A stretch of 33,962 bases of DNA from a virus. Position 1 is the first letter of the stretch. Every line of letters begins with the position of its first letter. Shown here piece by piece: positions 1,779 to 31,659 of this stretch. The stretch covers positions 1 through 33,962 of the IMG/VR virus record IMGVR_UViG_3300045107_000567; one strand, given 5' to 3'. Under the pieces are notes generated by a model. It had not been told where the DNA came from. It saw nothing but the letters and a program-made list of their open reading frames with translations, and searched no databases. The translations under genes and the position numbers were made by a program.

Positions 1779-2878
1779 TCGCAGAGCCCATACGCCGACG
1801 AGCACGCCGGCAGTTCTTCGGTGGCGGCGATCAGGTCGAACTGGCGCCCGCCGCGGCCCGTCTTCGCCCACTCGATCACCGAATAGATGCCGTGGTCCTT
1901 CGCCTGGGCCGGCGTGATGCCGGGTGCCGGGATGAAGGTGGCGGCGCGCCGTTTTGATGCTTCGCCCACCAGGCGCTCCCATTGAGCGATGCGCGCAACG
2001 TGCTCTGGAAAGCGGCGGCCGATCTCGCGTAGCTCGCCCTTGTTGGCGTTGATGCATGGCATGCAGCCGACGCGGCCCATACCCTGGGAATAGAGCGGGT
2101 TTAGCAGAATGCCGCGCGAACGCACGTAATCCACTGTCTCCTGCGCGGTCCAGGCCGCGATCGGCCGGTTGACGCTGATGCCGCCGCCCTGATACTCGAA
2201 GTCTGCAACGTTGCGGCGGTTTTGCGATTCGTCGCGGCGAACGCCCTGCCAAGACCAGACCTCGAAGCCCTGGTCCACCAGCGCCATCTGGTATTCCACC
2301 AGAGGGATGGTCTTCAGGTGCTGGGTGCAGAACTGCGCCTTGCGGCTGGGGAAGCGGCCTTTCCACAGGCATAGGTCGAGGAAAGGATTGCCGGTCGGCT
2401 GCAGGATGGCCAGTGCCTCGCGCTTGCGACGGTTGCTCCAGCGAATTTTCTTCCCGCCGTCCCATCCAGAGGCTCGAACAGGGTCCCAACGCAAGACCTC
2501 TTCGGTGTTCTCGCCCTCAGCATCCTTCGCATAGACGGGAATCAGGAGTGGCTTGCCGTCCTTGCCTTTGACCCATACTGGCACTCCAGCAGCGTCGGTC
2601 TTCTCGACCTTGGAATACGTTCGCCGATTCCGCTTGTCGCGCGCGATGAACATACGCTTGGCGGCAATTTCTTGGCTGAAGTCCGCGCGAACCACGTCAA
2701 TCCGAATGTCCAGCGCGAGGCGCAGGTAGTCCAGATAGGCGACCGTCTCTTCGTGCTCATTGCCGGTGTCGGCAAAGACGAAGCGGCAGGCTTCGCGCCC
2801 GTGCCGCGCCAAAGCGAGCAGGGCGGTGGCCGTGCTGTCCTTCCCGCCCGACATGCTTACTACATGGATGATGCTCAC
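1775..2878 (-). CDS. Phage PAPS-reductase-like PP-loop protein
   Basis: This 367-residue protein belongs to the phosphoadenosine phosphosulfate reductase / N-type ATP pyrophosphatase family. The PP-loop SGGKDS is at residues 10-15 and is followed by VFADTGNEHEET. Conserved cysteines lie in KAQFCTQHLK and in GRVGCMPCINANKGEL. At about 367 residues it is longer than classical CysH and matches the type common in phages. The GTG start at 2878 overlaps the stop of the helicase-methyltransferase gene (GTGA), so the two are translationally coupled. CysH reduces PAPS to sulfite, but related PP-loop enzymes such as DndC act in DNA or tRNA thiolation. Coupling to a DNA methyltransferase makes a DNA-modification role worth considering, without proof. 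Confidence 0.85.
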   Translation of the reverse strand: MSIIHVVSMSGGKDSTATALLALARHGREACRFVFADTGNEHEETVAYLDYLRLALDIRIDVVRADFSQEIAAKRMFIARDKRNRRTYSKVEKTDAAGVPVWVKGKDGKPLLIPVYAKDAEGENTEEVLRWDPVRASGWDGGKKIRWSNRRKREALAILQPTGNPFLDLCLWKGRFPSRKAQFCTQHLKTIPLVEYQMALVDQGFEVWSWQGVRRDESQNRRNVADFEYQGGGISVNRPIAAWTAQETVDYVRSRGILLNPLYSQGMGRVGCMPCINANKGELREIGRRFPEHVARIAQWERLVGEASKRRAATFIPAPGITPAQAKDHGIYSVIEWAKTGRGGRQFDLIAATEELPACSSAYGLCE

Positions 2879-5800
2879 GCCGGCTCCTGCTCCTGCTCCA
2901 GGGTGGCAAACAGGTCCGGCATGGCAAGCTCGCGCTCGGCCGCGGCGCAGTAGTGCGCGCCATCGGTGAAGTACTTGGGCGAAAGCTCGCAGGCCCAGGC
3001 CCGGCGCCCCTTCATCAGCGCCCGGTAGGGCACGCTCATGATCCCGCCGAACGGATCGCCCACCACGTCGCCGGGGTTCGTGAAGCGCTCGATCACCCGG
3101 TCCACGATGTCGAACTGCAGGGGGCAGTTCTTGACAATGCATCCCTCGGCGGTGAAGCTTTCGTCCTCCTCTACGCGCAGGCACCAGGTCTCGGCCTCGC
3201 CCGCGTCGGTCAGGGAGCGGACCTTTTTCCAGGCGCCGTCACCCAGGATGAATTGTTTCTTGCGCCGCTCGCTGGGAAGGTCGAAGCACAGAACCCATTC
3301 CTGCTTGCACTTGACCCGGCGTCCTTGGATTTCACCATCACGCGCGGGACGGCCTGCATACAGGCTTGGCACGGCACCGTAGACGCGCTGCGCCAGAAAG
3401 GCCATGCCCAGCAGCAGGTCGCGGCCTACTGCTGTCACCATCCATCGCTGGCGCTTCCGGTTCAGGTGCCCATCGCCGGATAGGTAGCCGTCCAGCAGCG
3501 CGCGCGCCTGGGCAAGCGGCAGGGTGAAGGCTTCTGGCGGCAGATGCTTGCCGTCGGCACCATGACCGCAGCGATGTAGAACCCCTTTCAGGGTGCCGGT
3601 TGGATCGAGCGCCCTGATCTGGTATGCGGTACCGCTAAACGAATAGGCACCAGCGCGCTCGCCGAGCTTCCCTTGCAGCGATTCAAGTTCGTGTGCGCCA
3701 CAGGAAATGATCGCCGAGCCGCGCGCATCCCAATGGCCGTCAGCGAGCCAGCGGCCGACAATCCACCAGTGCTGCTCATCTTCGGTGGCATCAGACTCAA
3801 CTTCCGGCAACTTGAAGTTGACGTAGGCGCCGAGTGTTTGGCCGGCTTCGGTCCAATCCGGCTGTACATATTCCGCGCCTTCGCGCTCGCGCACCCTCGT
3901 AGGCTTGCGGGTCCACATCTTGTGATCCGGCGTCAAGGTTAGACCAGGGACGCCCTGGGCCTGCACGGTGATAACCGGCTGAACGCCGGTGCAACGAGCA
4001 ACCAGTACCTTGCGCCAGCGCCCGCGGTGGGTGAGAGCATGCTCGCCGATCTGGACATCTTCAATCGGGACGTAGCCGCGCTCCTTTGTCAGCACGCGGG
4101 AGCCGCGCGCCAAGCAGAGGTGCTGCTCTTTGCCCTTCTGGTTCTGCAGCATGTTCAGCGTGCGCATGCGCGCCACATCCGTCCAGACCTGGTCGCAGTG
4201 CGAGGGCGGCTGCAGGAGCATGAAGGTAGTGGGCAGCTTGCCCATCGCCGTTAGTTCCGCGCCGATCCTGACGTGGTGCTCGTACTCGTAGACATTGCAG
4301 AGGTTGTAGTCGCGGAACCAGCGGAAGAGCACGTCATGGTCCAGGCCTTCCAACTCCTCTGGCGTGAGCATGCGGTTGCCACCCGAGCGCCAGAAGCTGT
4401 GCGCGTCCACCTGCCAGCGCGCCAGGCTATAGGCGGCCTTGTCCTTCACCACGCGCTCATCGGCGTACGACTTCGAGGTGTCGCTCGGGGTCTTGCGGAA
4501 CAGCAGCAAGTACTCCGGCATGCCGCAGCTCATTTTGCTGCTGTCCTTGCACAGCTCCGACCAGGTGAGGCGGTAGGTCTGGTTGTTCTCGCGCACTACA
4601 TCCGTGACGATGGTGATCATGCCCATGTAGCCGAAGCCGTGGCGGGTGTAGTGGTCGATGCAGCGGGCGTGGAATGGGTAGACGGTCTGGTAGCCCAGGC
4701 CCGTCATACCGCCAGGCACAATCCGGTCTTTGACGTGAATCGCGGCGATGCGCCCGGGCTTCAGCGCGCGCAGCATGTTCGGCGTCAGGAAGTCCATCTG
4801 CGCGAAGAAATGGTCGTTGTTGTCGGTGTGGCCGAAGTCCGCGTAGTTGGGCGAGTACTCGTATTGCGTGCTGAAGGGCACGCTGGTGCACCAAAGATCA
4901 ATCGAGTTTTCTTCGAGCGCAGCCGTTTCCAGTACCGAGTCGTTATTGACGATGCGGTAGTCGCGACCGGTGACCTCGATGCGTTCCACGCCCATCGCGC
5001 GCTTGAGCGTGTCGGCCATGGCGGCGCTGCTGAGCCCGTATTCCCTGATGATTTCAGTCATGCGCGCCCGCGCCTCCCTGTCTTTGTCCCATTTGTCTTC
5101 GAGCGATCGGCGCACGCTGCGCTCGGCCTCGGTGTAAATCAGGTCGATTCGCACGCGGTTCACCTGCAGGAATCGCAAGAGCCTGTGCACCGCCTGGATG
5201 AAATCGTTGAACTTGTGGCCGATGCCCATGAAAATGGCCCAGTGGCAGTGCCGCTGCAGGTTGCAGCCGCTGCCGAGCATCACCGGCTTGGCGGCGATTT
5301 CGCTGATCTGGCCGTCGCTGAAGCCGAGGATGGCGGTCTCGCGTTCGTCAAGCTCCTGGCTGCCGTAGACGGTCACCAGATCCGGGATCACTTTCTCTAG
5401 CGCATGGCGCTCGGCTTCCAGGTCGTGCCACAGCACGCGGTGCGCGGACGGGTCCAGAGCCCGCAATTCCATGAGCTTGGCCAGGCGCGCTGGCAGGCTG
5501 TCCCGCTTCTCGCGCGCGGCCTCCACAACGCCGATTGCCTGCTGCTTGATCAACTGGCCCTGGCCGCGGTAATCGAAGCCGGCATCGCTGTGATCGTCCG
5601 GAATTTCGTGCCAGTGGATATCCAGGCCCGGCAGTTCGTACCCTTCGTCGGAGTGGCCGAGGTCGGAGGGCTTCTGCACGAAGATGGCCCAAGACGCGCA
5701 CCAGAGCCAGAACTCGCGCTCTTTGTGGGGGTGGATCGTCAGCTGGTCGGCCTTCTCGCTGTTGCGCTTGAAGAAGCGGGTCTTGGCCTGGCCAACGTCC

Positions 5801-6450
5801 ATCACCCCAAGGAATGCGCTGTACGCCAGCAACTCGATGAAGTCATTGGGCGAGGGCGTGGCGGTTGCGACAAAGCGGTAAGCCACGCTTTGGCCGATCA
5901 CGCGCTCGTTCATGGTTTTGCGGTCGCCGGCAAACAGAGCCATGAACTCGCGGAAGGTCTTCGTGCCGCCGAAGCCGCGCAGGCAGGAGGCCTCATCCAG
6001 GCTGGCCACGTCGAAGAGGCGCGGGTCCAGCTTGCCGTCGCGCACGCTCTCGTAGTTGGTCAGGTAGATGCCCGGCCCGTCGATTTCTTCACTGCGGCGG
6101 ATGAACCGCAGCGTCACGCCCAGCATGGCGGCGTCACGCATGAATTCCTGGCGCACGCCCAGGGGGATGACCAGCAGGCCAAAGCCGGCGCGCCCGGTGA
6201 TGCGCAGGATCATCATCAGGATGATGCGCAGCACCTCGATCTGGATCACACTCTTGCCGAGACCGAAGGCGGCGAAGCAGGCGGCGCGGCCCATGCGCAC
6301 CAGCCAGCGCACGATATCGCGCTGGTGAGGCTTCAGGAGCGCATTGATCTCCGCATCCTCGACGGCGAAGCCGAATTCTTCGGCCATGCGCACCTTCGCG
6401 CCCAGGAAGTCGCGATAGGCCCGCATGGGCTTCAGGTCCTGGGCGTTCAT
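2875..6450 (-). CDS. Helicase-DNA methyltransferase fusion containing an intein
   Basis: This 1191-residue precursor has three parts. Residues 1 to about 470 form a SNF2/DEAD-like helicase with Walker A FGLGKS (GLGKS at 63-67), a DEAS box (152-155), the motif III-like TATP (196-199) and a late HKFNDFIQAVHRLLRF segment. The second part is an adenine-N6/cytosine-N4 methyltransferase. Its catalytic motif IV reads CTSVPF (521-526), where SPPY is usual, and its SAM-binding DPFGG is at 1132-1136. Motif IV before motif I indicates the beta-type permuted order. An intein at 779-1108 splits the enzyme between these two motifs, so splicing should be needed for activity. The ATG at 6450 is set by an ATGA overlap with the upstream gene. 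Such fusions occur in phages, where they modify DNA and may block restriction. Confidence 0.9.
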   Translation of the reverse strand: MNAQDLKPMRAYRDFLGAKVRMAEEFGFAVEDAEINALLKPHQRDIVRWLVRMGRAACFAAFGLGKSVIQIEVLRIILMMILRITGRAGFGLLVIPLGVRQEFMRDAAMLGVTLRFIRRSEEIDGPGIYLTNYESVRDGKLDPRLFDVASLDEASCLRGFGGTKTFREFMALFAGDRKTMNERVIGQSVAYRFVATATPSPNDFIELLAYSAFLGVMDVGQAKTRFFKRNSEKADQLTIHPHKEREFWLWCASWAIFVQKPSDLGHSDEGYELPGLDIHWHEIPDDHSDAGFDYRGQGQLIKQQAIGVVEAAREKRDSLPARLAKLMELRALDPSAHRVLWHDLEAERHALEKVIPDLVTVYGSQELDERETAILGFSDGQISEIAAKPVMLGSGCNLQRHCHWAIFMGIGHKFNDFIQAVHRLLRFLQVNRVRIDLIYTEAERSVRRSLEDKWDKDREARARMTEIIREYGLSSAAMADTLKRAMGVERIEVTGRDYRIVNNDSVLETAALEENSIDLWCTSVPFSTQYEYSPNYADFGHTDNNDHFFAQMDFLTPNMLRALKPGRIAAIHVKDRIVPGGMTGLGYQTVYPFHARCIDHYTRHGFGYMGMITIVTDVVRENNQTYRLTWSELCKDSSKMSCGMPEYLLLFRKTPSDTSKSYADERVVKDKAAYSLARWQVDAHSFWRSGGNRMLTPEELEGLDHDVLFRWFRDYNLCNVYEYEHHVRIGAELTAMGKLPTTFMLLQPPSHCDQVWTDVARMRTLNMLQNQKGKEQHLCLARGSRVLTKERGYVPIEDVQIGEHALTHRGRWRKVLVARCTGVQPVITVQAQGVPGLTLTPDHKMWTRKPTRVREREGAEYVQPDWTEAGQTLGAYVNFKLPEVESDATEDEQHWWIVGRWLADGHWDARGSAIISCGAHELESLQGKLGERAGAYSFSGTAYQIRALDPTGTLKGVLHRCGHGADGKHLPPEAFTLPLAQARALLDGYLSGDGHLNRKRQRWMVTAVGRDLLLGMAFLAQRVYGAVPSLYAGRPARDGEIQGRRVKCKQEWVLCFDLPSERRKKQFILGDGAWKKVRSLTDAGEAETWCLRVEEDESFTAEGCIVKNCPLQFDIVDRVIERFTNPGDVVGDPFGGIMSVPYRALMKGRRAWACELSPKYFTDGAHYCAAAERELAMPDLFATLEQEQEPA
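3127..4116 (-). other. Intein with LAGLIDADG endonuclease domain (330 aa)
   Basis: The codons 4116-3127 encode 330 residues with all the hallmarks of an intein. Cys1 opens block A (CLARGSRVLTKERGYVPIED). Block B is LTLTPDHK. Two LAGLIDADG-type helices are IVGRWLADGHW (about 119-129) and LLDGYLSGDGH (about 207-217). Block F is CLRVEEDESFTAEG, and the C-terminus is CIVKN followed by Cys as the +1 extein residue. The penultimate residue is Lys where His is usual, which occurs in some active inteins. The acidic residue of each LAGLIDADG motif is kept (ADG, GDG), so the homing endonuclease may be active. Confidence 0.92.
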
Positions 6451-6866
6451 GGCTGGCCCCGATGTTCGGCGTTGAAGTCGGAAAAAAACGACTCCATCTC
6501 GGCCTTGTAGTCCATCCCCATAGGGACCGGGATACCCTTCTGACGCAGCGCAGCCATCATGCAAGCCGGGCAGCCTTCGGTGAGTTCGCGCAGGCGCGGC
6601 ATGGCCGCCTCGACCAGGGCAGTAAGGTTGTTCTGCTCGATTTCCCAGCCGGGGCCGGCCGATGCCGCGTTGAAGGAAGTGGGGTCCGGCAGGATCGCCA
6701 GCATTTCCTCGATGGGCGGCGGCGAACTGCCGTTCATTGCGCACACGCGGCAATCGCGCTTCGGGTTGAGGGTGCAATGCCGCTCGTGCTGTTCCATGGA
6801 GTGGCGGCGCAAGCTTCCCTTTTTGCAGAAGTCGCACCAGTAGCGGGTAACTTGGCGGGACTTCAT
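6447..6866 (-). CDS. Small phage zinc-finger protein
   Basis: This 139-residue protein has an N-terminal metal-binding pattern: WCDFCKKG, then HSMEQHERHC, then RDCRVC. It looks like a C2H2-like finger combined with a zinc ribbon. The rest is mainly helical and contains a further Cys pair in GCPACM. The ATG at 6866 overlaps the previous stop (ATGA) and its own stop overlaps the helicase-methyltransferase start, so all three are translated in series. It may be a DNA- or RNA-binding partner of the modification genes, but no function is recognised. Confidence 0.8.
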   Translation of the reverse strand: MKSRQVTRYWCDFCKKGSLRRHSMEQHERHCTLNPKRDCRVCAMNGSSPPPIEEMLAILPDPTSFNAASAGPGWEIEQNNLTALVEAAMPRLRELTEGCPACMMAALRQKGIPVPMGMDYKAEMESFFSDFNAEHRGQP

Positions 6867-18282: not shown

Positions 18283-18290
18283 CGATCAAT

Positions 18291-18349
18291 GGGGCGGAGC
18301 GCGCCGGGGATTCTCTCTCCTCAACCTAGCGGCCGGCGCGCCGAGCCCC
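18291..18349 (+). promoter_or_regulatory. Long inverted repeat upstream of rdgC
   Basis: The arms 18291-18307 and 18333-18349 pair as 5 bp (GGGGC/GCCCC), a 3x3 internal loop and 9 bp (GCGCGCCGG/CCGGCGCGC) around a 25-nt loop. No T-run follows, so it is not a standard terminator. It may control rdgC and the DGR behind it. Confidence 0.5.
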
Positions 18350-18372
18350 AACCCCTTACGAAGCCAGAAACC

Positions 18373-19257
18373 ATGTTCAAAAACCTGAATCTCTACCGCC
18401 TGGGCGAAGCCGCGCTGTACAGCGATGCGATCGAGGAAGGGCTTTCCACTTTTCGTTTTACGGAGTGCCTGGCCACGCAGGTGCAATCCGGTGGCTGGGT
18501 GCCGCCGCGCGGCGAGGAAAACGGCGCCCTAGTGGAAGTGGTGGGCGGGCAGTGGCTGCTGCGCTTCAAGCTGGAAACCCGGATGCTGCCCGGCGCCGTG
18601 GTGCGCCGCAAGGCCGAAGAGCGCATGGCCAAGATCGAGGAAATGACCGGCCGCAAGCCCGGCAAGAAGCAGGCGCGCGAGATCCGCGAAGACACGTACA
18701 TGCAGCTGCTGCCGCAGGCCTTCACCAAGCAGGAAAGCATGCTCGTGTGGATCGATCCGCGCGCCCGCCTGCTGGCGATCGACTGCGGCAGCCAGCCGAA
18801 GGCAGAGCAGGCGCTGACGGTGCTGTTCAAGTGCGTCCCCGGCCTGGTCGCCGTGCCGATCGCTACCCAATCCTCGCCGGCATCGTCCATGGGCCTGTGG
18901 CTGGAAGGAAAGGCCGAGCCCGGCGACTTCTACGTGGAGCGGGAATGCGAACTCAAGGCCGCCGACGATACCGGCGCGGCGGTGCGCTATTCACACCACA
19001 ACCTGGACGGCGCCGACGTGCGCGGCCATGTCGCCGCCGGCAAGGTGCCGACGCGCCTGGGCCTGGGCTTGGATGGGCGAATCCGCTTCACCCTCACCGA
19101 CAAGCTGCAGATCAAGAAGATCAAGTTCCTTGACGGCGTGTTCGACACCGAAACCGAAGAGGGAGATCGCTTCGACACCGACACCACGATTGCAACCGCC
19201 GAGATGAGCAAGGTGATTGGCGACCTCGTGCAAGCCCTGGGCGGATACGCCTCCTGA
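18373..19257 (+). CDS. rdgC: Recombination-associated protein RdgC
   Basis: This 294-residue protein matches the length of E. coli RdgC (303) and its style throughout: MFKNLNLYRL at the start, GWVPPRGEENGALVE, a conserved LLRFKLETRMLPG and KLQIKKIKFLDGVFD near the C-terminus. RdgC is a ring-shaped double-stranded DNA-binding protein that limits RecA filament activity, and several phages carry their own copy. The ATG at 18373 is chosen from family length. The frame is open upstream to 18289 through the inverted repeat, but that is not expected to be translated. Confidence 0.92.
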   Translation: MFKNLNLYRLGEAALYSDAIEEGLSTFRFTECLATQVQSGGWVPPRGEENGALVEVVGGQWLLRFKLETRMLPGAVVRRKAEERMAKIEEMTGRKPGKKQAREIREDTYMQLLPQAFTKQESMLVWIDPRARLLAIDCGSQPKAEQALTVLFKCVPGLVAVPIATQSSPASSMGLWLEGKAEPGDFYVERECELKAADDTGAAVRYSHHNLDGADVRGHVAAGKVPTRLGLGLDGRIRFTLTDKLQIKKIKFLDGVFDTETEEGDRFDTDTTIATAEMSKVIGDLVQALGGYAS

Positions 19258-19376
19258 CTATTTCGTAGCACCTCGCGTTGCACCACCTCAGCGCGCGCCG
19301 ACACGCGCAGCGAGGCCAAGCCGGGGCAGGGCCGGCGTAGTTCCAAAGAAATTCAACTTTTCACCGAGGAAACAAC

Positions 19377-19997
19377 ATGAACGCTCCCGCTGCATCCCCG
19401 ATTGTCACCATTCCCGAAGTAATCGGCACGCCCTTCGGCGGTGGTTTCTATGCAGGCCGCTATCTGGAAGGCGATCAACTCTGCCTTCTGATCGTCGCCC
19501 CCAAATCCCTGGGCGAGCACGCCGACACGCCCTGGAGCAAGAAGCTGGTCAAGGTCGCAGGCTCTTTGAGCTACGCCGATGGCTTTTCGAATACCCGTGC
19601 CATGGCCGAGGCCGGCAGCGATATCGCGCAGTGGGCCCTGGGCTTGGACATCAACGGCGAGAGCGATTGGTTCATTCCCGCACGCGACCAGCTGGAGTTG
19701 CTGTATCGCGCCTTCAAGCCAACCGACCGCGAAAACTGGGTATTTCGCAATGGCGACAACCCCAGCAGCGTGCCGCCTGGTTATCCCTATACCGAGGCTT
19801 TCCCGGCCTGCACCACGATCCCCGGCTTTTGTTCCGGGGCTGCCGACGCATTTGATCCGGCCTGGTACTGGAGTTCGACTCAGTACGCCTCGAACCCTGA
19901 CTTTGCCTGGTGCCAGAGCTTCGACGGCGGCAACCAGAACGGCTACCACAAGAACGGCAAGCTCCGCGTTCGGGCTGTCCGCAGATTAAAAATTTAG
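19377..19997 (+). CDS. DGR target protein 1 (DUF1566/C-type-lectin-like)
   Basis: This 206-residue protein carries a DUF1566/Lcl-type domain: DWFIPARDQLELLYRAF and the hallmark YWSSTQY, ending in RVRAVRRL. Its last 38 or so residues are encoded by the variable repeat 19884-19988, which copies the template at 21091-21195 with nine A to G changes. This gives Asn to Ser, Asp or Gly and Tyr to Cys replacements on the predicted binding surface. No signal peptide or membrane span is seen, so it is cytoplasmic or a virion component. A GAGGAAAC ribosome site precedes the ATG. Targets of this fold bind ligands such as receptors, but the ligand here is unknown. Confidence 0.92.
   Translation: MNAPAASPIVTIPEVIGTPFGGGFYAGRYLEGDQLCLLIVAPKSLGEHADTPWSKKLVKVAGSLSYADGFSNTRAMAEAGSDIAQWALGLDINGESDWFIPARDQLELLYRAFKPTDRENWVFRNGDNPSSVPPGYPYTEAFPACTTIPGFCSGAADAFDPAWYWSSTQYASNPDFAWCQSFDGGNQNGYHKNGKLRVRAVRRLKI
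19884..19988 (+). repeat. DGR variable repeat 1 (VR1)
   Basis: These 105 bp align without gaps to the template repeat at 21091-21195. They differ at nine positions, all A in the template and G here. The last 37 bp, ending GCAGATTA, are identical and would serve as the initiation-of-mutagenic-homology region. A shared TTAGTCATTCA lies just after VR1 (20001-20011) and at the VR2 end (20536-20546). Confidence 0.95.
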
Positions 19998-20040
19998 TCT
20001 TTAGTCATTCAACGCTGCAACACAACGCCAAAGGATTTCC

Positions 20041-20550
20041 ATGCAAATCATCACCCAAGGCTCGGTCGAACTGCTTATTGCGGGCGCCCGGGTGCACATC
20101 GAAGCCGAAAGGCTTGCCGACCTCTGGCTGCGCGATCTCCGCCATGGCATTACGCCAATCGCAGCAGCTGCTCCCGCCAAGATCGGCGACACCTGGCAGG
20201 GCGGCATCTACGCCGGCATCTCCTTGGACAGGGAAGGCCGCCCGTGCCATCTCGTTCTCGCGCGCACCGATCGCGGCATCGAAAAGAACTGGGCGGAGGC
20301 CAAGGCCTGGGCCAGCGGGCTGGAGCATGAGGGCCATGCGGACTGGTCCCTGATGAACCGTCACGACGGCCTTGTTCTGTTCAAGAACCTGCGCAGCGAG
20401 TTCGATGAGGCGGTGCATTGGACCGAGGATGAGTACGCCTCGCTCCCTGACTTTGCCTGGTACCAGAACTTCAGCTACGGCGGCCAGTTCTACTACCACA
20501 AGTACGACAAGCTCCGCGTTCGGGCTGTCCGCAGATTAGTCATTCAGTAA
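20041..20550 (+). CDS. DGR target protein 2 (shorter lectin-like)
   Basis: This 169-residue protein has a degenerate DUF1566-like layout (GGIYAGISLDREGRPCHLVLA, ADWSLMNRHDGLVLFKNL) and ends in the same RVRAVRRL block. Residues from 132 onward are encoded by the variable repeat 20434-20538. It differs from the template at eleven adenines, giving Asn to Leu, Tyr, Phe, Ser, Gly and Asp. The usual WSS motif is replaced by HWTEDEY. An AAAGGA ribosome site precedes the ATG. The N-terminal 40 residues are unlike target 1. No signal peptide is visible. It is a second, more diversified target of the same template. Confidence 0.9.
   Translation: MQIITQGSVELLIAGARVHIEAERLADLWLRDLRHGITPIAAAAPAKIGDTWQGGIYAGISLDREGRPCHLVLARTDRGIEKNWAEAKAWASGLEHEGHADWSLMNRHDGLVLFKNLRSEFDEAVHWTEDEYASLPDFAWYQNFSYGGQFYYHKYDKLRVRAVRRLVIQ
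20434..20538 (+). repeat. DGR variable repeat 2 (VR2)
   Basis: These 105 bp align without gaps to the template at 21091-21195. All eleven differences are at template adenines (six to T, four to G, one to C). The 3' end from AAGCTCCGCG to GCAGATTA is identical to the template. Confidence 0.95.
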
Positions 20551-20568
20551 TTCAGCCTTTCACACAGC

Positions 20569-20910
20569 ATGGCACCCCATAGCAAGCTTCCCATCTACCC
20601 GGTGACTCGCCGCCTCTTCGAGATGGCGGTGGGTTTCGCAAGGAAGATGAACCGCGACCTCCGGCCCACGGTCGGCAATCGGCTTCTCAACGACAGTTTC
20701 GAACTCGTCATGTTGGTGTACCGCGCCAACTCGGCGCGCGACAAAGTGCCGTTTCTGACCGAGATGCTGGAACGTGCCGAGGCAGCTAATTTGTTGCTCC
20801 GGCTCTGCATGGACCTCCGGGTCATCACGCAGGCGGAGTACGCGGCGGCGATCGAACTCACAACCTCCATCGGGAAGCAAGCCAATGGCTGGCGCAAATC
20901 TCAACAATAG
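20569..20910 (+). CDS. avd: DGR accessory variability determinant (Avd)
   Basis: This 113-residue, all-helical, basic protein matches the four-helix-bundle Avd family: PIYPVTRRLFEMAVGFARKMNRDLRPTVG, NDSFELVMLVYRAN, then LLRLCMDLRVIT and a final Lys/Arg-rich tail. In Bordetella phage BPP-1, Avd forms a pentamer that binds the reverse transcriptase and template RNA and is needed for mutagenic retrohoming. Here it lies between the second target and the template repeat, the usual order. No strong ribosome site is seen before the ATG at 20569. Confidence 0.9.
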   Translation: MAPHSKLPIYPVTRRLFEMAVGFARKMNRDLRPTVGNRLLNDSFELVMLVYRANSARDKVPFLTEMLERAEAANLLLRLCMDLRVITQAEYAAAIELTTSIGKQANGWRKSQQ

Positions 20911-20927
20911 GGCTCGCCTGCAGCCGG

Positions 20928-21056
20928 ACGGTCAAGGCCGACCGGACCGTGCGATTTTTAATCTGGTCGCGCCGCTGCCTCACGAGGGCACCGCCATGCA
21001 CACCACGGATACCGCCGCGAGTCAGCGGGACCGGTCCGGTGCAGTTTCCCCGCTGA
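20928..21056 (+). ncRNA. Putative structured leader of the DGR template RNA
   Basis: Between avd and the template repeat there are two pairing elements. ACGGTC (20928-20933) can pair with GACCGT (20945-20950). TCAGCGGG (21022-21029) can pair with CCCGCTGA (21049-21056) and contains a GGACCGGTCC palindrome at its base. DGR template RNAs need structured flanks to prime and bind the RT-Avd complex. The exact ends are unknown. Confidence 0.45.
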
Positions 21057-22309
21057 GCAATCGGCTGGGCGACGTGAATAGCGCGAACGGTACGCCTCGA
21101 ACCCTGACTTTGCCTGGTACCAGAACTTCAACAACGGCAACCAGAACAACTACCACAAGAACAACAAGCTCCGCGTTCGGGCTGTCCGCAGATTACTCCT
21201 TTCAATCCGCGCGCCGCCATGCTGATTTCACTTGGGCGGAACTGGTAACCGCCTACTTCGATTGCCGCCGCACGAAGCGCAATAGCGCCTCTGCACTGGC
21301 TTTCGAGGTTGATCTAGAGCGCAATCTCTCACGCCTAGAGCAGGATTTGCGTTCTGGCCGCTATGCGCCTGGGCCTTCTATCTGCTTTGTCATCACCCGC
21401 CCAAAAGCACGCGAGGTTTGGGCAGCAGACTTCCGCGACCGCATCGTTCACCACCTGCTTTACAACCGTGTCGCGGCCCGCTTTCACGCCGGCTTCATCG
21501 CTGATTCCTCGGCCTGTATTCCTGGGCGCGGAACCCTTTACGCCGTCACCAGGATGGAAGCCAAGATCAGGTCCGCCACCCAGAACTGGACGCGGCCGGC
21601 GCACTACCTCAAATGTGACCTTGCCAATTTCTTTGTCAGCATTGACAAGCACATCCTGCTGGACCTGCTACAGAAGAAGATCCGGGAGCCGTGGTGGCAG
21701 GCCCTTGCAGCTGCTGTCCTTTTCCATGACCCGCGCGAGAACTACATCCTCAAAGGTAGCCGCGATCTATTCAGCAGCGTGCCGCCGCACAAGCGCCTGG
21801 AGAACCAGCCGGCGCATATCGGACTCCCGATCGGCAATCTCTCCAGCCAGTTCTTCGCCAATGTACTGCTGAACGAACTCGACCAACACGTCAAGCATGA
21901 CCTTCGGGTTCAGCACTATGGCAGGTATGTGGATGATTTTCTCTGCTTGGGTGACCCTGGCCGGCTAAATGAAATTTTGGCAGACCTCACAACCTGGCTG
22001 CCGGCGAACCTCGGTGTACGCCTGAACCCGCGCAAGACCATTCTGCAGCCCTGCGCGCGTGGCGTTGATTTCGTCGGCCAGCGTATCGAGCCTTTCCGTC
22101 GCCGAATCCGGAAGCGCACCCGTAACGATGCGCTGCAGCGTATCCGGACCATGCCCGCAGAAGAGCTTTTCACTTCCGGCCAAAGCTATTTCGGCCTTTT
22201 TCGGCAGGCCAGCCATTCCCATGGCGACCGCGCTGAACTCGCGAACCTGCTGCGCGCCCGTGGGCATTCTGTGGATCGCAGCCTCACTCACACTTTCAGG
22301 AGATATTGA
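20996..22309 (+). CDS. DGR reverse transcriptase
   Basis: The conserved enzyme runs from about 21200 (FTWAELVTAYFDCRR) to 22309. It contains DFRDRIVHHLLYN, YLKCDLANFFVSIDKHIL with a catalytic Asp, the DGR-type GLPIGNLSSQ (residues 276-285, where group II intron RTs have a QG motif) and the active-site YVDD (311-314). It copies the template RNA with adenine errors. The start is uncertain. The ATG at 20996 has a GAGGG ribosome site 7 nt upstream and gives 437 residues, but the first 65 are low-complexity Thr/Arg/Ser sequence translated from the leader and template repeat. No ATG, GTG or TTG lies in frame just after the template. The stop overlaps the next start. Confidence 0.93.
   Translation: MHTTDTAASQRDRSGAVSPLSNRLGDVNSANGTPRTLTLPGTRTSTTATRTTTTRTTSSAFGLSADYSFQSARRHADFTWAELVTAYFDCRRTKRNSASALAFEVDLERNLSRLEQDLRSGRYAPGPSICFVITRPKAREVWAADFRDRIVHHLLYNRVAARFHAGFIADSSACIPGRGTLYAVTRMEAKIRSATQNWTRPAHYLKCDLANFFVSIDKHILLDLLQKKIREPWWQALAAAVLFHDPRENYILKGSRDLFSSVPPHKRLENQPAHIGLPIGNLSSQFFANVLLNELDQHVKHDLRVQHYGRYVDDFLCLGDPGRLNEILADLTTWLPANLGVRLNPRKTILQPCARGVDFVGQRIEPFRRRIRKRTRNDALQRIRTMPAEELFTSGQSYFGLFRQASHSHGDRAELANLLRARGHSVDRSLTHTFRRY
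21091..21195 (+). repeat. DGR template repeat (TR)
   Basis: This is the 105-bp donor repeat. Read in the VR frame it has nine AAC codons plus adenine-bearing TAC, CAC and AAG codons. AAC codons are typical of DGR templates because adenine randomisation gives many residues and no stops. It lies just upstream of the conserved RT coding region, inside the apparent RT frame but in a different phase. VR1 and VR2 match it everywhere except at adenines. Confidence 0.96.
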
Positions 22310-23552: not shown

Positions 23553-25739
23553 ATGACCAAACGTAAGATGCCAAGCGCCGACCTGGCGCGCATCCATCAC
23601 CGCGCCCGCGCGCGCCACGAAACACTGCACCGCCGCGAGCCTCAATTCGAGCTTCGCCTGCAGGACGAACTGATCGTGGATCTGTTCGCCGGGGGTGGCG
23701 GCACGTCCACCGGTATCGAGATGGCGTGCGGATTCAGCCCGGATATCGCTGCAAACCACGACCCTGAAGCAGTGGCGATGCACACGCTGAACCACCCGCA
23801 CACGAAGCACTACTGCGAGAACGTGGTGAAGTTGGATATCCAGAAGGTGTGCGGCGGCCGTCCAGTCGGGCTGCTCTGGCTATCCCCGGATTGCACGTTC
23901 CATTCCAAGGCACGCGGCGGCAAGCCCTTCCGCGACCGGAACCATGCACGGCGGCGCCGCGGCCTCGCCTGGGAGGCGATCCGTTGGGCAAAGGCGGTGC
24001 GCCCGCGCATCATCTGCCTGGAAAACGTCGAGGAGTTCGAAGACTGGGGCCCATTGGGCGACGATGGCAAGCCGGACCCGCTGAAGAAGGGAGCCACCTT
24101 CCAGCGCTGGATGCGCCAGCTGCAGAACCTGGGATATGCCGTTGAATACTGGGAACTGAAGGGCTGCGACTACGGCGCGCCCACGATCCGCAAGCGCTTG
24201 TTCCTGGTGGCGCGCTGCGATGGTCAGCCCATTGTGAAACCGGTGCAAACGCACGGCGACCCCAAGAGCGAGGCTGTCAAAGCAGGGCTGTTGCTGCCTT
24301 GGCGCACCACGGCAGAGTGCATCGACTGGAAGCTTGCTTGCCCGTCGATTTTCGAGCGCTCGAAGCCGCTGGCGGAAAACACGCTGAAGCGCATCGCCAC
24401 GGGCATTTTCCGGTACGTGATCAACACGCAAAAGCCGTTCATCGTGCCGGTCACGCATGCGGGCGACAGCCGCGTAAACGACATTGACGCGCCGATGCCC
24501 ACGATCACCTCTGCGCATCGCGGCGAAAAGGCGCTTGTGGCTGCGAACATCGCCCGAATCGGCCAGACCGGAGGTGGGCCTCAAGTCAAGGGTGCAACGG
24601 ACCCGCTGTCCACCATCACCACCAAGGCCGAACACCTTCTAGTCGGCGCCAACCTGGTCGGTGTGGGCGGCCGCGCCGGTCAGAGCCGACCGCGCAGCCT
24701 GGACGAGCCCGCCGCCACCGTTACCAGCAAATACGATACCGCTGTGGTGGCGCCCTTCGTGACCAAGTTCCGGGAAAACAGCGTTGGCTCGAAGATTGAT
24801 GAACCGTTGCACACCATCACCACTGGCGGCGGTGGCGGCAACAGCGTGCATGGCATCGTGGCTCCAATCATGGTCACCTCGGCGCACGGCGAGGTATCGC
24901 CCAAGGGCGTGAAGCGCTGGGGCAAAGGCCATCGTTCCGTCGAAGAGCCGCATCCGACCATCACCACCAGTGGCAGCGACCACAGCTTAGTGGCTTCCAC
25001 ACTCATCCAGTCCGGCTACGGCGAGCGCGAGGGCCAGGTGCCGCGCACGGCTGACCTGGAGGCGCCGGCCAATACCATCGTGGCAGGCGGCGTCAAGCAG
25101 GGGCTGGTGGCGGCGCTGCTCAACAAGCACTACGGCGGCGTGGTCGGCACGCCGATCGACCAGCCCGCCGGCACCGTCACCACGTCGGACCACCATGCGC
25201 TGACCACGGCAACGCTGCTGCACAACACCACCGGAAATGCGCCAACCGACCCCCGCGAACCGCTCAAGACAATCACCACCGGCGGCCAGCACGCGGTTGT
25301 CGCTTCGCACCTGGCAGAACTGCACGGCACCAGCTCCGCGCACCCGGTCGATACGCCGCTGGGCACCGTGGCCGCTCAAGGCACGCACCATGCCGAGGTC
25401 CGTACCTTCCTGATGAAGTATTACGGTCAGGGCGGCCAGTGGTCCAAGGTCAGCGAGCCGATGGGTGCCATCACCACCAAGGACCGCATGGCATTGGTCA
25501 ACGTGGACGGCGCGCCCTACGAGATCGTGGATATCGGCATGCGCATGCTTCAGCCGCGCGAGCTATACCGTGCCCAGGGCTTCCCCGACAACTACAAGAT
25601 TGATGTGGTGCACAACGGCAAACCGTTCACCAAGGAAGCGCAGGTGCGCATGGTGGGGAACAGCGTCTGCCCGCAGCTGGCGGCAGCGATTCTGCGCGCC
25701 AACTTCCAGTTTCAGCCCCGACAACTGGAGGCCGCGTGA
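23553..25739 (+). CDS. Cytosine-C5 DNA methyltransferase with repeat-rich recognition region
   Basis: This 728-residue protein has motif I DLFAGGG (43-49), motif IV with catalytic Cys114 in SPDCTFHS (PDC where PPC is usual), motif VI ENV (157-159) and TIRKR near motif VIII. C-terminal motifs are PRELYRAQGFPDNY and MVGNSVCPQLAAAI. Between motif VIII and the C-terminal motifs, at about 309-652, are ten imperfect repeats. Each carries a D-x-P-x-x-T-(I/V)-T-T core followed by a helix-like LVA segment (for example IDEPLHTITT, VEEPHPTITT, REPLKTITT). This region sits where the target-recognition domain should be and is larger than usual. It probably protects phage DNA from host restriction. Confidence 0.9.
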   Translation: MTKRKMPSADLARIHHRARARHETLHRREPQFELRLQDELIVDLFAGGGGTSTGIEMACGFSPDIAANHDPEAVAMHTLNHPHTKHYCENVVKLDIQKVCGGRPVGLLWLSPDCTFHSKARGGKPFRDRNHARRRRGLAWEAIRWAKAVRPRIICLENVEEFEDWGPLGDDGKPDPLKKGATFQRWMRQLQNLGYAVEYWELKGCDYGAPTIRKRLFLVARCDGQPIVKPVQTHGDPKSEAVKAGLLLPWRTTAECIDWKLACPSIFERSKPLAENTLKRIATGIFRYVINTQKPFIVPVTHAGDSRVNDIDAPMPTITSAHRGEKALVAANIARIGQTGGGPQVKGATDPLSTITTKAEHLLVGANLVGVGGRAGQSRPRSLDEPAATVTSKYDTAVVAPFVTKFRENSVGSKIDEPLHTITTGGGGGNSVHGIVAPIMVTSAHGEVSPKGVKRWGKGHRSVEEPHPTITTSGSDHSLVASTLIQSGYGEREGQVPRTADLEAPANTIVAGGVKQGLVAALLNKHYGGVVGTPIDQPAGTVTTSDHHALTTATLLHNTTGNAPTDPREPLKTITTGGQHAVVASHLAELHGTSSAHPVDTPLGTVAAQGTHHAEVRTFLMKYYGQGGQWSKVSEPMGAITTKDRMALVNVDGAPYEIVDIGMRMLQPRELYRAQGFPDNYKIDVVHNGKPFTKEAQVRMVGNSVCPQLAAAILRANFQFQPRQLEAA

Positions 25740-29558: not shown

Positions 29559-30563
29559 TCAGCGGTCGTGCAGGTTCTTGGCCCGGAGTTGGGTGTAGCG
29601 CATCATCTGCTTCGGGTCTTTGTGGCCGCTCACCAGCATGATCTCGGGGATGCTGTATTTCCCGCTTTCCACAAGCCGGCTGATGGCCTCATGCCGGAGG
29701 TCGTATAACCGGAGGTCTACGATCCCCAATTCCGCGCAGGCGCGCGGGAACAGGCTGCTCCAGCTATCACCGTTGACCGGGAAAATGAATTCGCTGTCCT
29801 TGGGCTGGCGCTTGATCACCGCCATGCAGCGGCCGAGCAGCGGCACCACCTGGTTGTTGCCGATTTTCTTGCGCGGGTCTTTCCGGTCGCGGATGAGAAT
29901 GGTCTTGTCGACCTCGTTCAGGTCTGCCCAGCGCAAGCCGCAAATCTCACTCGGCGGCCGGAACGCCGAATCGAGGATGAATTCGATGTGGTCGCGGGTG
30001 AGGGTGTTGGACCGTTCGTCCAGCCATCCGCAGATCTGATCGAGTTCTTCGGAAGTCGGGCGCCGGTCCCGCTCATTGCTGCGGTGCAGCTTCCCCATCA
30101 TCGTCAGCAGCTCGCGCGCCTCATCGACCACGCCCGGGTGCACTTGCAGCCGCCAGAGCGTGCGGGCGACCTTGAGCACGGTCTTCAGGTAGGTAAGGTC
30201 AATGCTGGCCGTCACGCCGGATATCCGCCGGTCCTTGCCGATGTAGGCGACCAGGCGCTCGGCCGTCAGGGTGTAGGCGTCTTCGCCGCCCAGGTGTGTC
30301 TCAAGGTAGCCGAGCACGGCGGCCTTGTTGCGGCCGAAGGGTTTTGCCGCGGCAAACTCGGCCCGGTAATCCTGGATGAGCTTACGCACCGGCAGCGATC
30401 CCTTCGGCAGCACGCCGGCGCGCCCGGCGTCGATCGCGGCTTCGACGCCGCGAGCCCACTTTTCTGCCAGAATCTTGGTCCCGAAGGTTTTAGTCTGGGC
30501 CGGGTGCCCTTTGCGGCGCACCTGGGCGCGCCACTTGTCTCCGACAGGGATAATCGACGCCAT
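29559..30563 (-). CDS. Tyrosine-family phage integrase
   Basis: This 334-residue protein has an N-terminal arm-binding region (GDKWRAQVRRKGHPAQTKTFGTK), a core-binding SAM-like domain, and a catalytic domain. The catalytic residues visible are Arg in AFRPPSEICGLRW, His-x-x-Arg-type LYDLRHEAISRL, His in VSGHKDPKQ and the nucleophile Tyr in MMRYTQ. It ends directly after the PrtN-like gene in convergent orientation, and its start is 82 bp from dusA. This is the expected arrangement for phages that integrate in the 5' end of dusA. Confidence 0.93.
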   Translation of the reverse strand: MASIIPVGDKWRAQVRRKGHPAQTKTFGTKILAEKWARGVEAAIDAGRAGVLPKGSLPVRKLIQDYRAEFAAAKPFGRNKAAVLGYLETHLGGEDAYTLTAERLVAYIGKDRRISGVTASIDLTYLKTVLKVARTLWRLQVHPGVVDEARELLTMMGKLHRSNERDRRPTSEELDQICGWLDERSNTLTRDHIEFILDSAFRPPSEICGLRWADLNEVDKTILIRDRKDPRKKIGNNQVVPLLGRCMAVIKRQPKDSEFIFPVNGDSWSSLFPRACAELGIVDLRLYDLRHEAISRLVESGKYSIPEIMLVSGHKDPKQMMRYTQLRAKNLHDR

Positions 30564-30720
30564 ACCGTAGCAAATCCGTAGCAGTGGGCGCGTAGATTAT
30601 CATGGCGGAACGTGCTTTTTGATGTAAATTTAAACAGGCTTTTTTGTGGCTTCTGACGTAGCAAGTCCCTGGCGCTTCTGCGTGGCACCCATGATGGACT
30701 GGACCGACCGGCATTGCCGC
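30564..30720. other. Inferred attachment-site region at the dusA 5' end
   Basis: The boundary between phage and host lies between the integrase start (30563) and the conserved DusA motif FCVAPMMDWTD (about 30677-30710). CGTAGCA is present at 30566-30572, 30577-30583 and 30657-30663, with CGTAGA at 30591. These are possible integrase or excisionase arm sites. Integration into dusA by a dedicated integrase family is established. The matching other end is outside the window, so the exact core cannot be fixed. Confidence 0.55.
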
Positions 30721-31659
30721 GTCTTCCATCGCCTCATCAGCCGGCATGCGCGCCTGTACACCGAGATGGTGACCACCGGCGCGCTGCTGCATGGCGATGT
30801 GCCGCGCCATCTCGATTTCAACGAGGAGGAGCATCCGGTGGCCCTGCAACTGGGCGGCAGCGAGCCGGAGGACCTGGCGCAGTGCGCGAAGCTGGCGCAG
30901 CAGTGGGGCTACGACGAGGTCAATATCAATTGCGGCTGTCCGTCCGAGCGGGTGCAGCGCGGCGCCTTTGGGGCCTGCCTGATGGCCGAGCCGGAACTGG
31001 TGCGCGATTGCGTGAAGGCCATGAACGACGTGGTCGATATCCCGGTGACGGTGAAGCACCGTATCGGCATCGACAAGATCGATTCGTATGACTTCGTGCG
31101 CGACTTTGTCGGCATCGTCTCGCAGTCCGGGGCCACCGTGTTCATGGTGCACGCGCGCAGCGCCTGGCTCAAGGGCCTGAGCCCGAAGGAGAACCGCGAG
31201 ATTCCGCCGCTGCGCTACGAATACGCGCAGCGGCTCAAGCAGGATTTCCCGGACTTCACTTTCGTGGTCAACGGCGGCATCACCACCCACATCGGCGTCG
31301 AAGCCCAGCTGGAGCAGGCGGACGGCGTGATGATAGGGCGGCAGGCGTATCACGACCCCTATTGGATGGCTGAGGCCGATGCGCGCTGGTTCAACGACAT
31401 GGGCGTGCCGCTCACGCGCATGGAAGTGGCGCAGGCAATGCGTGACTACGCGGCGCGCGTGGTGGCGGCGAATGCGGGCCGCGAGCATCCGACCACGGTG
31501 CGCCACATCGTGCGCCACATGCTGGGCCTGTTCCAGGGCATGCCGGGCGCGCGCGCCTGGCGCCGCCTGCTGTCGGACGCCGGGGCGCTCGCGGCCAATG
31601 ACCCGGACATCATCCTGCGCGCCGCCGCCTTGACCCAGCCGGCGCGCATGGCTGCCTGA
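30646..31659 (+). CDS. dusA: tRNA-dihydrouridine synthase A
   Basis: This 337-residue flavoenzyme reduces uridine to dihydrouridine in the D loop of tRNAs. Family blocks are clear: RFCVAPMMDWTDRHCR, LYTEMVTTGALLHGD, EEHPVALQLGGS, the active-site NINCGCPSERV with catalytic Cys, SPKENREIPPL, and MLGLFQGMPGARAW. The GTG at 30646 has no ribosome site and the first ten residues are atypical. This fits replacement of the native 5' end by phage DNA during integration, with expression now depending on sequence next to the prophage. The rest is complete. Confidence 0.95.
   Translation: MASDVASPWRFCVAPMMDWTDRHCRVFHRLISRHARLYTEMVTTGALLHGDVPRHLDFNEEEHPVALQLGGSEPEDLAQCAKLAQQWGYDEVNINCGCPSERVQRGAFGACLMAEPELVRDCVKAMNDVVDIPVTVKHRIGIDKIDSYDFVRDFVGIVSQSGATVFMVHARSAWLKGLSPKENREIPPLRYEYAQRLKQDFPDFTFVVNGGITTHIGVEAQLEQADGVMIGRQAYHDPYWMAEADARWFNDMGVPLTRMEVAQAMRDYAARVVAANAGREHPTTVRHIVRHMLGLFQGMPGARAWRRLLSDAGALAANDPDIILRAAALTQPARMAA

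Follow-up and report, generated by a model that had tools for sequence, protein, structure and literature searches.

A complete DGR with two target genes

The diversity-generating retroelement (DGR) of Bordetella phage BPP-1 (mtd/avd/TR/brt) is the prototype of its kind and the one whose RNA is most studied. Its template repeat (TR) abuts avd, while a structured spacer of 144 nt (Rfam Phage_DGR) separates TR from the reverse transcriptase (RT) gene brt (PMC3240598); this spacer, 3' of TR, folds and recruits the bRT-Avd complex (PMC12875486). BPP-1 has one tail target, and a hairpin follows its variable repeat (VR). In two published surveys, DGRs with several VRs make up 28.6% (PMC6642488) and about a seventh (PMC3521204) of the elements, and the latter describes a structural group 3 in which TR overlaps the 5' end of the RT gene. 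Here we analysed an IMG/VR record of 33,962 bases, IMGVR_UViG_3300045107_000567 (hereafter the window, the whole stretch of DNA studied), and we read one of its elements, with a probability of roughly 0.93, as a complete phage-borne DGR with one template and two target genes. Its protein-coding genes and repeats, with open reading frame (ORF) lengths, are as follows.

19377-19997, plus strand: target gene 1, 206 aa, predicted Lcl_C / C-type-lectin fold; PF07603 Lcl_C at 41.9 bits (cut-off 34.9)
19884-19988, plus strand: VR1, at the 3' end of target gene 1; 9 changes relative to TR, all A to G
20041-20550, plus strand: target gene 2, 169 aa, short beta-helix N-terminus plus predicted Lcl_C / C-type-lectin domain; PF07603 at 30.9 bits, under the cut-off of 34.9
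20434-20538, plus strand: VR2, at the 3' end of target gene 2; 11 changes relative to TR (6 T, 4 G, 1 C), all at TR adenines
20569-20910, plus strand: Avd accessory protein, 113 aa; PF22296 bAvd at 43.3 bits (cut-off 40), phrog_3206 'Avd protein of DGR' at E 1e-22
20996-22309, plus strand: DGR RT ORF, 437 aa from the ATG at 20996; conserved core from about 21230
21091-21195, plus strand: TR, 105 nt with 32 adenines

An earlier note on this DNA had proposed a complete DGR with two targets, and the anatomy of TR, VRs, Avd and RT, together with family homology, bears this out. The coordinates that it gave for the three repeats were correct according to our own alignment, which is gapless over 105 nt (106 with position 21090 included), and a recount placed all 20 mismatches (9 in VR1, 11 in VR2) at template adenines, with TR composed of 32 A in 105. 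With mismatches at random positions, the chance of an adenine-only set is 9e-6 for VR1 and 5e-7 for VR2. The last 31 nt (21165-21195) are identical in the three copies, so that no difference of the IMH/IMH* type (initiation of mutagenic homing) is visible, and immediately outside the VRs the copies are no longer alignable in register. Given that G accounts for 51% of the changes in 144 VRs of relatives, the nine changes of VR1, all to G, have a p of about 0.002. One other VR in that set consists almost wholly of G changes (17 G, 1 C); because of it we judged the VR1 set unexceptional and rejected a separate type of mutation.

The profile searches suggested for Avd and RT both returned matches. 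The gene upstream of TR is that of Avd, an accessory protein of most but not all DGRs, by PF22296 and phrog_3206, its match to NF033474 (E 7e-11) being under that model's cut-off. The RT, described from its GLPIGNLSSQ (21821-21850) and YVDD (21926-21937) motifs as DGR-type, matches PF00078 (E 5e-12) and phrog_1423 (E 5e-105), and its closest solved relative is the BPP-1 DGR RT (8ub7, E 1.7e-40), followed by the next match at E 1e-7. Its placement in the DGR group relies on these motifs (Gxxx[S/T]Q replacing QGxxxSP, together with YxDD) and on the best solved match. The ORFs for RT, Avd and the two targets are all intact.

The comparison with BPP-1 made in the earlier note holds for the mechanism: both elements share the order of Avd, TR and RT, adenine-specific changes, a homologous RT and a C-type-lectin-fold target with the VR at the 3' end of its gene. 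It does not hold for the layout, in which the hairpin, IMH/IMH*, the RNA side, the RT frame and the location of targets all differ. The window has a structured RNA of 180 nt before TR, two small targets in the early region, no hairpin after the VRs, and an RT frame that passes through TR. Thus the window element is a DGR, but not a BPP-1 subtype.

In the mechanism that we propose, a transcript would carry the structured 5' leader followed by TR, and the DGR RT with Avd would reverse-transcribe it, erring at adenines. The cDNA would then replace the 3' end of either target gene, so that surface residues of two small C-type-lectin-fold proteins change while TR stays constant.

A structured RNA leader upstream of TR

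The region between avd and TR, together with the RT frame described below, holds the most interesting features of the element, both absent from the earlier note.

20912-21093, plus strand: RNA leader, Rfam RT-15 (RF03018), 161.7 bits (gathering score 82), E 6e-40; ends at the 5' edge of TR

RT searches yielded 80 viral and 19 genome loci, many of them from Betaproteobacteria. RT-15 was present in 14 of 17 other loci scanned, ending a few bases from TR wherever TR was located, and it lies upstream of TR in all clade members checked; distant DGRs of lower RT identity (L094, L096, L097) gave no RT-15 match. Since a search of 369 genomes of one class matched the seed genome alone, we sampled viral contigs, this time independently of the RT, by scanning for the RT-15 core motif, which gave 78 loci. 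A DGR RT lies directly downstream in 74 of them and the remaining four end 79-312 bases past the motif, which makes 74 of the 74 testable loci.

Covariation analysis was required for the leader because single-sequence folding of the window copy was uninformative (z -0.19). Across 60 leaders, 45 pairs formed in 96.1% of cells, 32 of them with both sides changed, and the covariation exceeded all 500 shuffles and all slid controls. Conversely, the alignment of relatives yielded no conserved structure 3' of TR (RNAalifold -0.5, 4 pairs). Because the leader covaries, the region after TR does not, and the BPP-1 spacer lies 3', the side of the structured RNA has been switched in this clade. By analogy, the leader would recruit the RT-Avd complex, which is the job of the 3' spacer in BPP-1. 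The switch is also apparent from spacing: the avd-TR and TR-RT core gaps are about 0/213 in BPP-1, 23/221 in BalMu-1, 4/154 in ACA2, 30/216 in Bise and 28/342 in Lagaffe, against 180/56 in the window, 152/36 in Haboob and 125/61 in Bacteroides phage F4.

RT-15, an apparently unassigned Rfam family, can thereby be placed 5' of TR as the leader RNA of a common phage DGR, in a layout where, compared with BPP-1, the structured RNA flanks the template on the other side. The literature searched, which did not cover the original description of the family, contained no account of RT-15. Concerning other RNAs, phage F4 (L229 2713-3010) has the switched layout without an RT-15 match, which suggests that this layout may be wider than the clade, with a different RNA. 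In Bacillus phage BalMu-1, Rfam RT-14 lies just 3' of TR (L226 2795-2938), in the place of the BPP-1 spacer, and looks like a DGR RNA as well. A CPEB3-ribozyme match on the minus strand at 19334-19411 was dismissed (20.6 bits, with 35 needed). Within the DGR, a sigma-70 scan found no promoter-like site, and terminator-like matches were below the shuffled mean.

The RT reading frame crosses TR

20984-20998, plus strand: proposed RT translation start, inside the RNA leader; GAGGG at 20984-20988, ATG at 20996

The leader ATG is in frame with the RT in 59 of 70 relatives, and it is both in frame and open in 70 of the 74 loci chosen by RNA alone. From there the frame crosses TR, whose conserved 3' end stands in a constant phase relative to the RT core in 70 of 74 relatives despite 11 spacer lengths; each of the exceptions (L069, L074, L090 and L098) has an ATG downstream of TR and ahead of the RT core. 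This phase is kept by 72 of 72 loci in the RNA-chosen sample. The two samples overlap and their sequences are related, hence no probability is attached to this conservation. In the deposit of Burkholderia phage Magia, the RT coding sequence is annotated from the same leader ATG. In the window, RT translation would begin at the ATG at 20996 and pass through TR in another frame. The best reading is that RT translation probably begins in the leader (inside TR in about one sixth of relatives) and that the extra residues are tolerated. Structural group 3 of Schillinger (PMC3521204) was presented purely as a cassette pattern; the accessible part of that source mentions neither a leader RNA nor phase conservation.

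Relatives carry several VRs and diversify in nature

After removal of duplicates, the set for VR statistics comprised 144 VRs from 73 loci. TR adenines hold 1945 of the 2027 TR-VR mismatches in this set, and 1538 of 1569 in the second, RNA-chosen sample. At least two VRs are present in 59 of the 73 loci, the usual distances upstream of TR being about 650 and 1,100-1,300 bases. Two targets are the rule in this clade; the view that two targets on one template are less usual therefore applies to DGRs overall, as the survey figures given above (PMC6642488, PMC3521204) indicate, but not here. In addition to the usual two target genes, some relatives have far VRs at 4.7-9.4 kb from TR (L084 503-596, L009 1195-1294, L016 404-494).

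Two loci from two metagenomes, L038 and L039, share an identical stretch of about 2.6 kb (avd, leader, TR and RT) but for 19 differences, every one of them in the VR and at a TR adenine. These differences show that VRs of relatives diversify in nature with TR constant. In the pairs L016/L017 and L067/L075, TR is nearly constant and the VRs are divergent. Where two isolates had a 100% identical RT, the pair was mostly one genome recorded twice; such pairs were excluded as evidence of activity. The activity, or recent activity, that had been proposed is shown for relatives only, and the window copy would by inference be functional as well.

The window DGR is a member of a widespread phage clade, one of many such elements, and its layout is a variant on known DGRs. 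Magia (Burkholderia), the Pseudomonas phages Cruim01, LPPA56 and Haboob, and QDWS (Shewanella) belong to the same clade, with RTs 57-61% identical, an Avd and an early-region location. The RT-15 leader is annotated in Cruim01, matched by cmscan in Haboob and QDWS, and represented by its motif in Magia, which also shares the short lectin-fold targets; the second annotated target of Magia lies about 6 kb away. These phages differ from the window in target N-termini and in spacing, and the RT start of Haboob lies after TR. Outside the clade, a two-VR, one-TR DGR with DUF1566 targets (PMC6642488) has the same number of TRs and two ORFs with C-terminal VRs; unlike the window it has some non-A substitutions, and its RNA layout is not described in the accessible part of the source.

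Fold, location and role of the targets

DGR target genes carry their VR in a C-type-lectin or other tolerant fold. AlphaFold2 models, for which sequences of the window and of relatives were used, support a predicted C-type-lectin (Lcl_C) fold for both targets. The pLDDT (predicted local distance difference test) is 90.5 for target 1 and 91.2 for target 2, and the top PDB match of both is 8q4e, the C-terminal domain of Legionella Lcl (Z 12.7 and root-mean-square deviation 3.4 over 126 residues; Z 14.8 and 2.9 over 120 residues, respectively), with many C-type lectins ranking beneath. The varied residues would lie on the protein surface. The two targets are 62.5% identical over their last 48 residues, as distant paralogues of one domain. 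UniProt Q9MBK5 of Pseudomonas phage D3 (186 aa) has a fold like that of target 1, at 30% identity.

18289-19257, plus strand: RdgC-like exonuclease upstream of the DGR, PF04381 at E 1e-93; early/recombination region
29559-30563, minus strand: tyrosine integrase, PF00589 at E 7e-14, beside a dihydrouridine synthase gene (Dus, E 1.5e-83) at the host boundary

The DGR has RdgC/NinB/RecE-like genes on one side, which follow a CI-type repressor, and the methylase-integrase end on the other, that is, it lies in the early (recombination-to-integrase) region and outside the tail module. Magia, QDWS, Cruim01, LPPA56 and Haboob have the same placement, which for LPPA56, most of whose genes are unnamed, is based on a nearby integrase. 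In 22 other loci the neighbours belong to methylase, PAPS reductase, SSB, ERF, RdgC, HTH and integrase families, and the 25 commonest families include none of the tail. By comparison, in the distant DGR phages BPP-1, ACA2 and VHML tail genes adjoin the DGR and targets are longer than in the clade. The wider comparison indicates a large group of temperate phages in which small early-region proteins, and not tail fibres, are diversified.

The ligand of the targets would be variable, and most likely a molecule of the host or of a rival phage. The targets might nevertheless be virion adhesins encoded apart from the tail genes and serve host-receptor switching as in BPP-1, and we regard this as close to an even bet, slightly on the losing side. 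In Legionella Lcl, the Lcl_C fold serves as an adhesin domain (PMC11162425), and DGR targets of several other viral clades are tail proteins (PMC8144416); yet clade targets are small proteins, with a median length of about 155 aa and no obvious tail domain, and in the 22 loci as in the five isolated phages the DGR is flanked by genes for recombination, regulation, methylases and integrases, not by tail genes. A crude hydropathy scan for signal peptides or membrane anchors flagged 6 of the 108 targets from relatives and neither of the two in the window. For cells, DGR recognition proteins located in the cytosol have been put forward (PMC10053308). A fuller version of the early-region reading is that of a permuted DGR, in which the 5' RT-15 scaffold recruits RT-Avd, TR is also translated, in another frame, as the start of the RT, one RNA serving as mRNA and as template, and the products are early proteins that act inside the cell, recognising host-defence or rival-phage molecules rather than receptors; taken as a whole we consider it unlikely.

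Points against a complete DGR and other explanations

Several observations weigh against a complete, working DGR and the layout proposed here. No inverted repeat follows VR1, where a GC-rich hairpin or cruciform of the BPP-1 type is expected 4-34 bp after the VR, and VR2 is followed only by one imperfect palindrome, 41 bases downstream. Among the 144 VRs of relatives, stems are near chance level and no GRNA-loop stem of at least 6 bp was found. Because the BPP-1 hairpin is absent, target recognition must differ or use other signals. Regarding the RT frame, the values for the three codon positions are 0.26/0.31/0.32 in the leader, 0.22/0.30/0.22 in TR and 0.23/0.21/0.52 in the RT core, so that a third-position bias is absent from leader and TR, and about one sixth of relatives have an in-frame ATG inside TR only. 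Since there is no third-position excess, the RT extension, if made, would not be selected for its residues; the claim of a conserved protein domain in it was dropped after this test.

The absence of a hairpin after the VRs and the exclusively A to G changes of VR1 would also suit a decayed DGR, one that has stopped working and whose VR differences date from long ago. The four ORFs (RT, Avd and the two targets) are nevertheless intact with the catalytic YVDD present, TR equals the VRs outside A positions across 105 nt, and relatives of the same layout, equally hairpin-less, diversify in nature; we therefore hold decay to be quite improbable. Coincidental repeats beside an RT of another kind (retron, DRT defence or group II intron-like) would account for distant RT matches in PADLOC and NCBIfam (DRT models, group II RT), far below the NCBIfam cut-offs. 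Against this stand the BPP-1 DGR RT as the best match by far, the Avd partner and the GLPIGNLSSQ motif, and adenine-specific TR/VR pairs in 73 related loci already refute this explanation, whose likelihood is negligible. Just as little credence goes to ordinary paralogous gene ends arising by duplication plus drift, already refuted even though the targets are distant paralogues, because drift would not confine differences to the adenines of a third, non-target copy and the copies cannot be aligned in register just beyond the VR.

Other genes of the window

A C5 cytosine methylase of 728 aa (23553-25739, plus strand) has a long run of degenerate 'P..TITT' repeats inserted between its catalytic segments; no tandem repeat was found in this gene at the DNA level. 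On the minus strand, a 1320-aa ORF (2875-6837) combines helicase-like and N6/N4 DNA methylase segments, with the methylase match confined to residues 1242-1291; the stretch before it had no Pfam intein match at E 0.001 and reads intein-like. At 29559-31659 the integrase adjoins dus, and host-like NAPRTase and alpha/beta hydrolase genes follow, which places the prophage end at dus.

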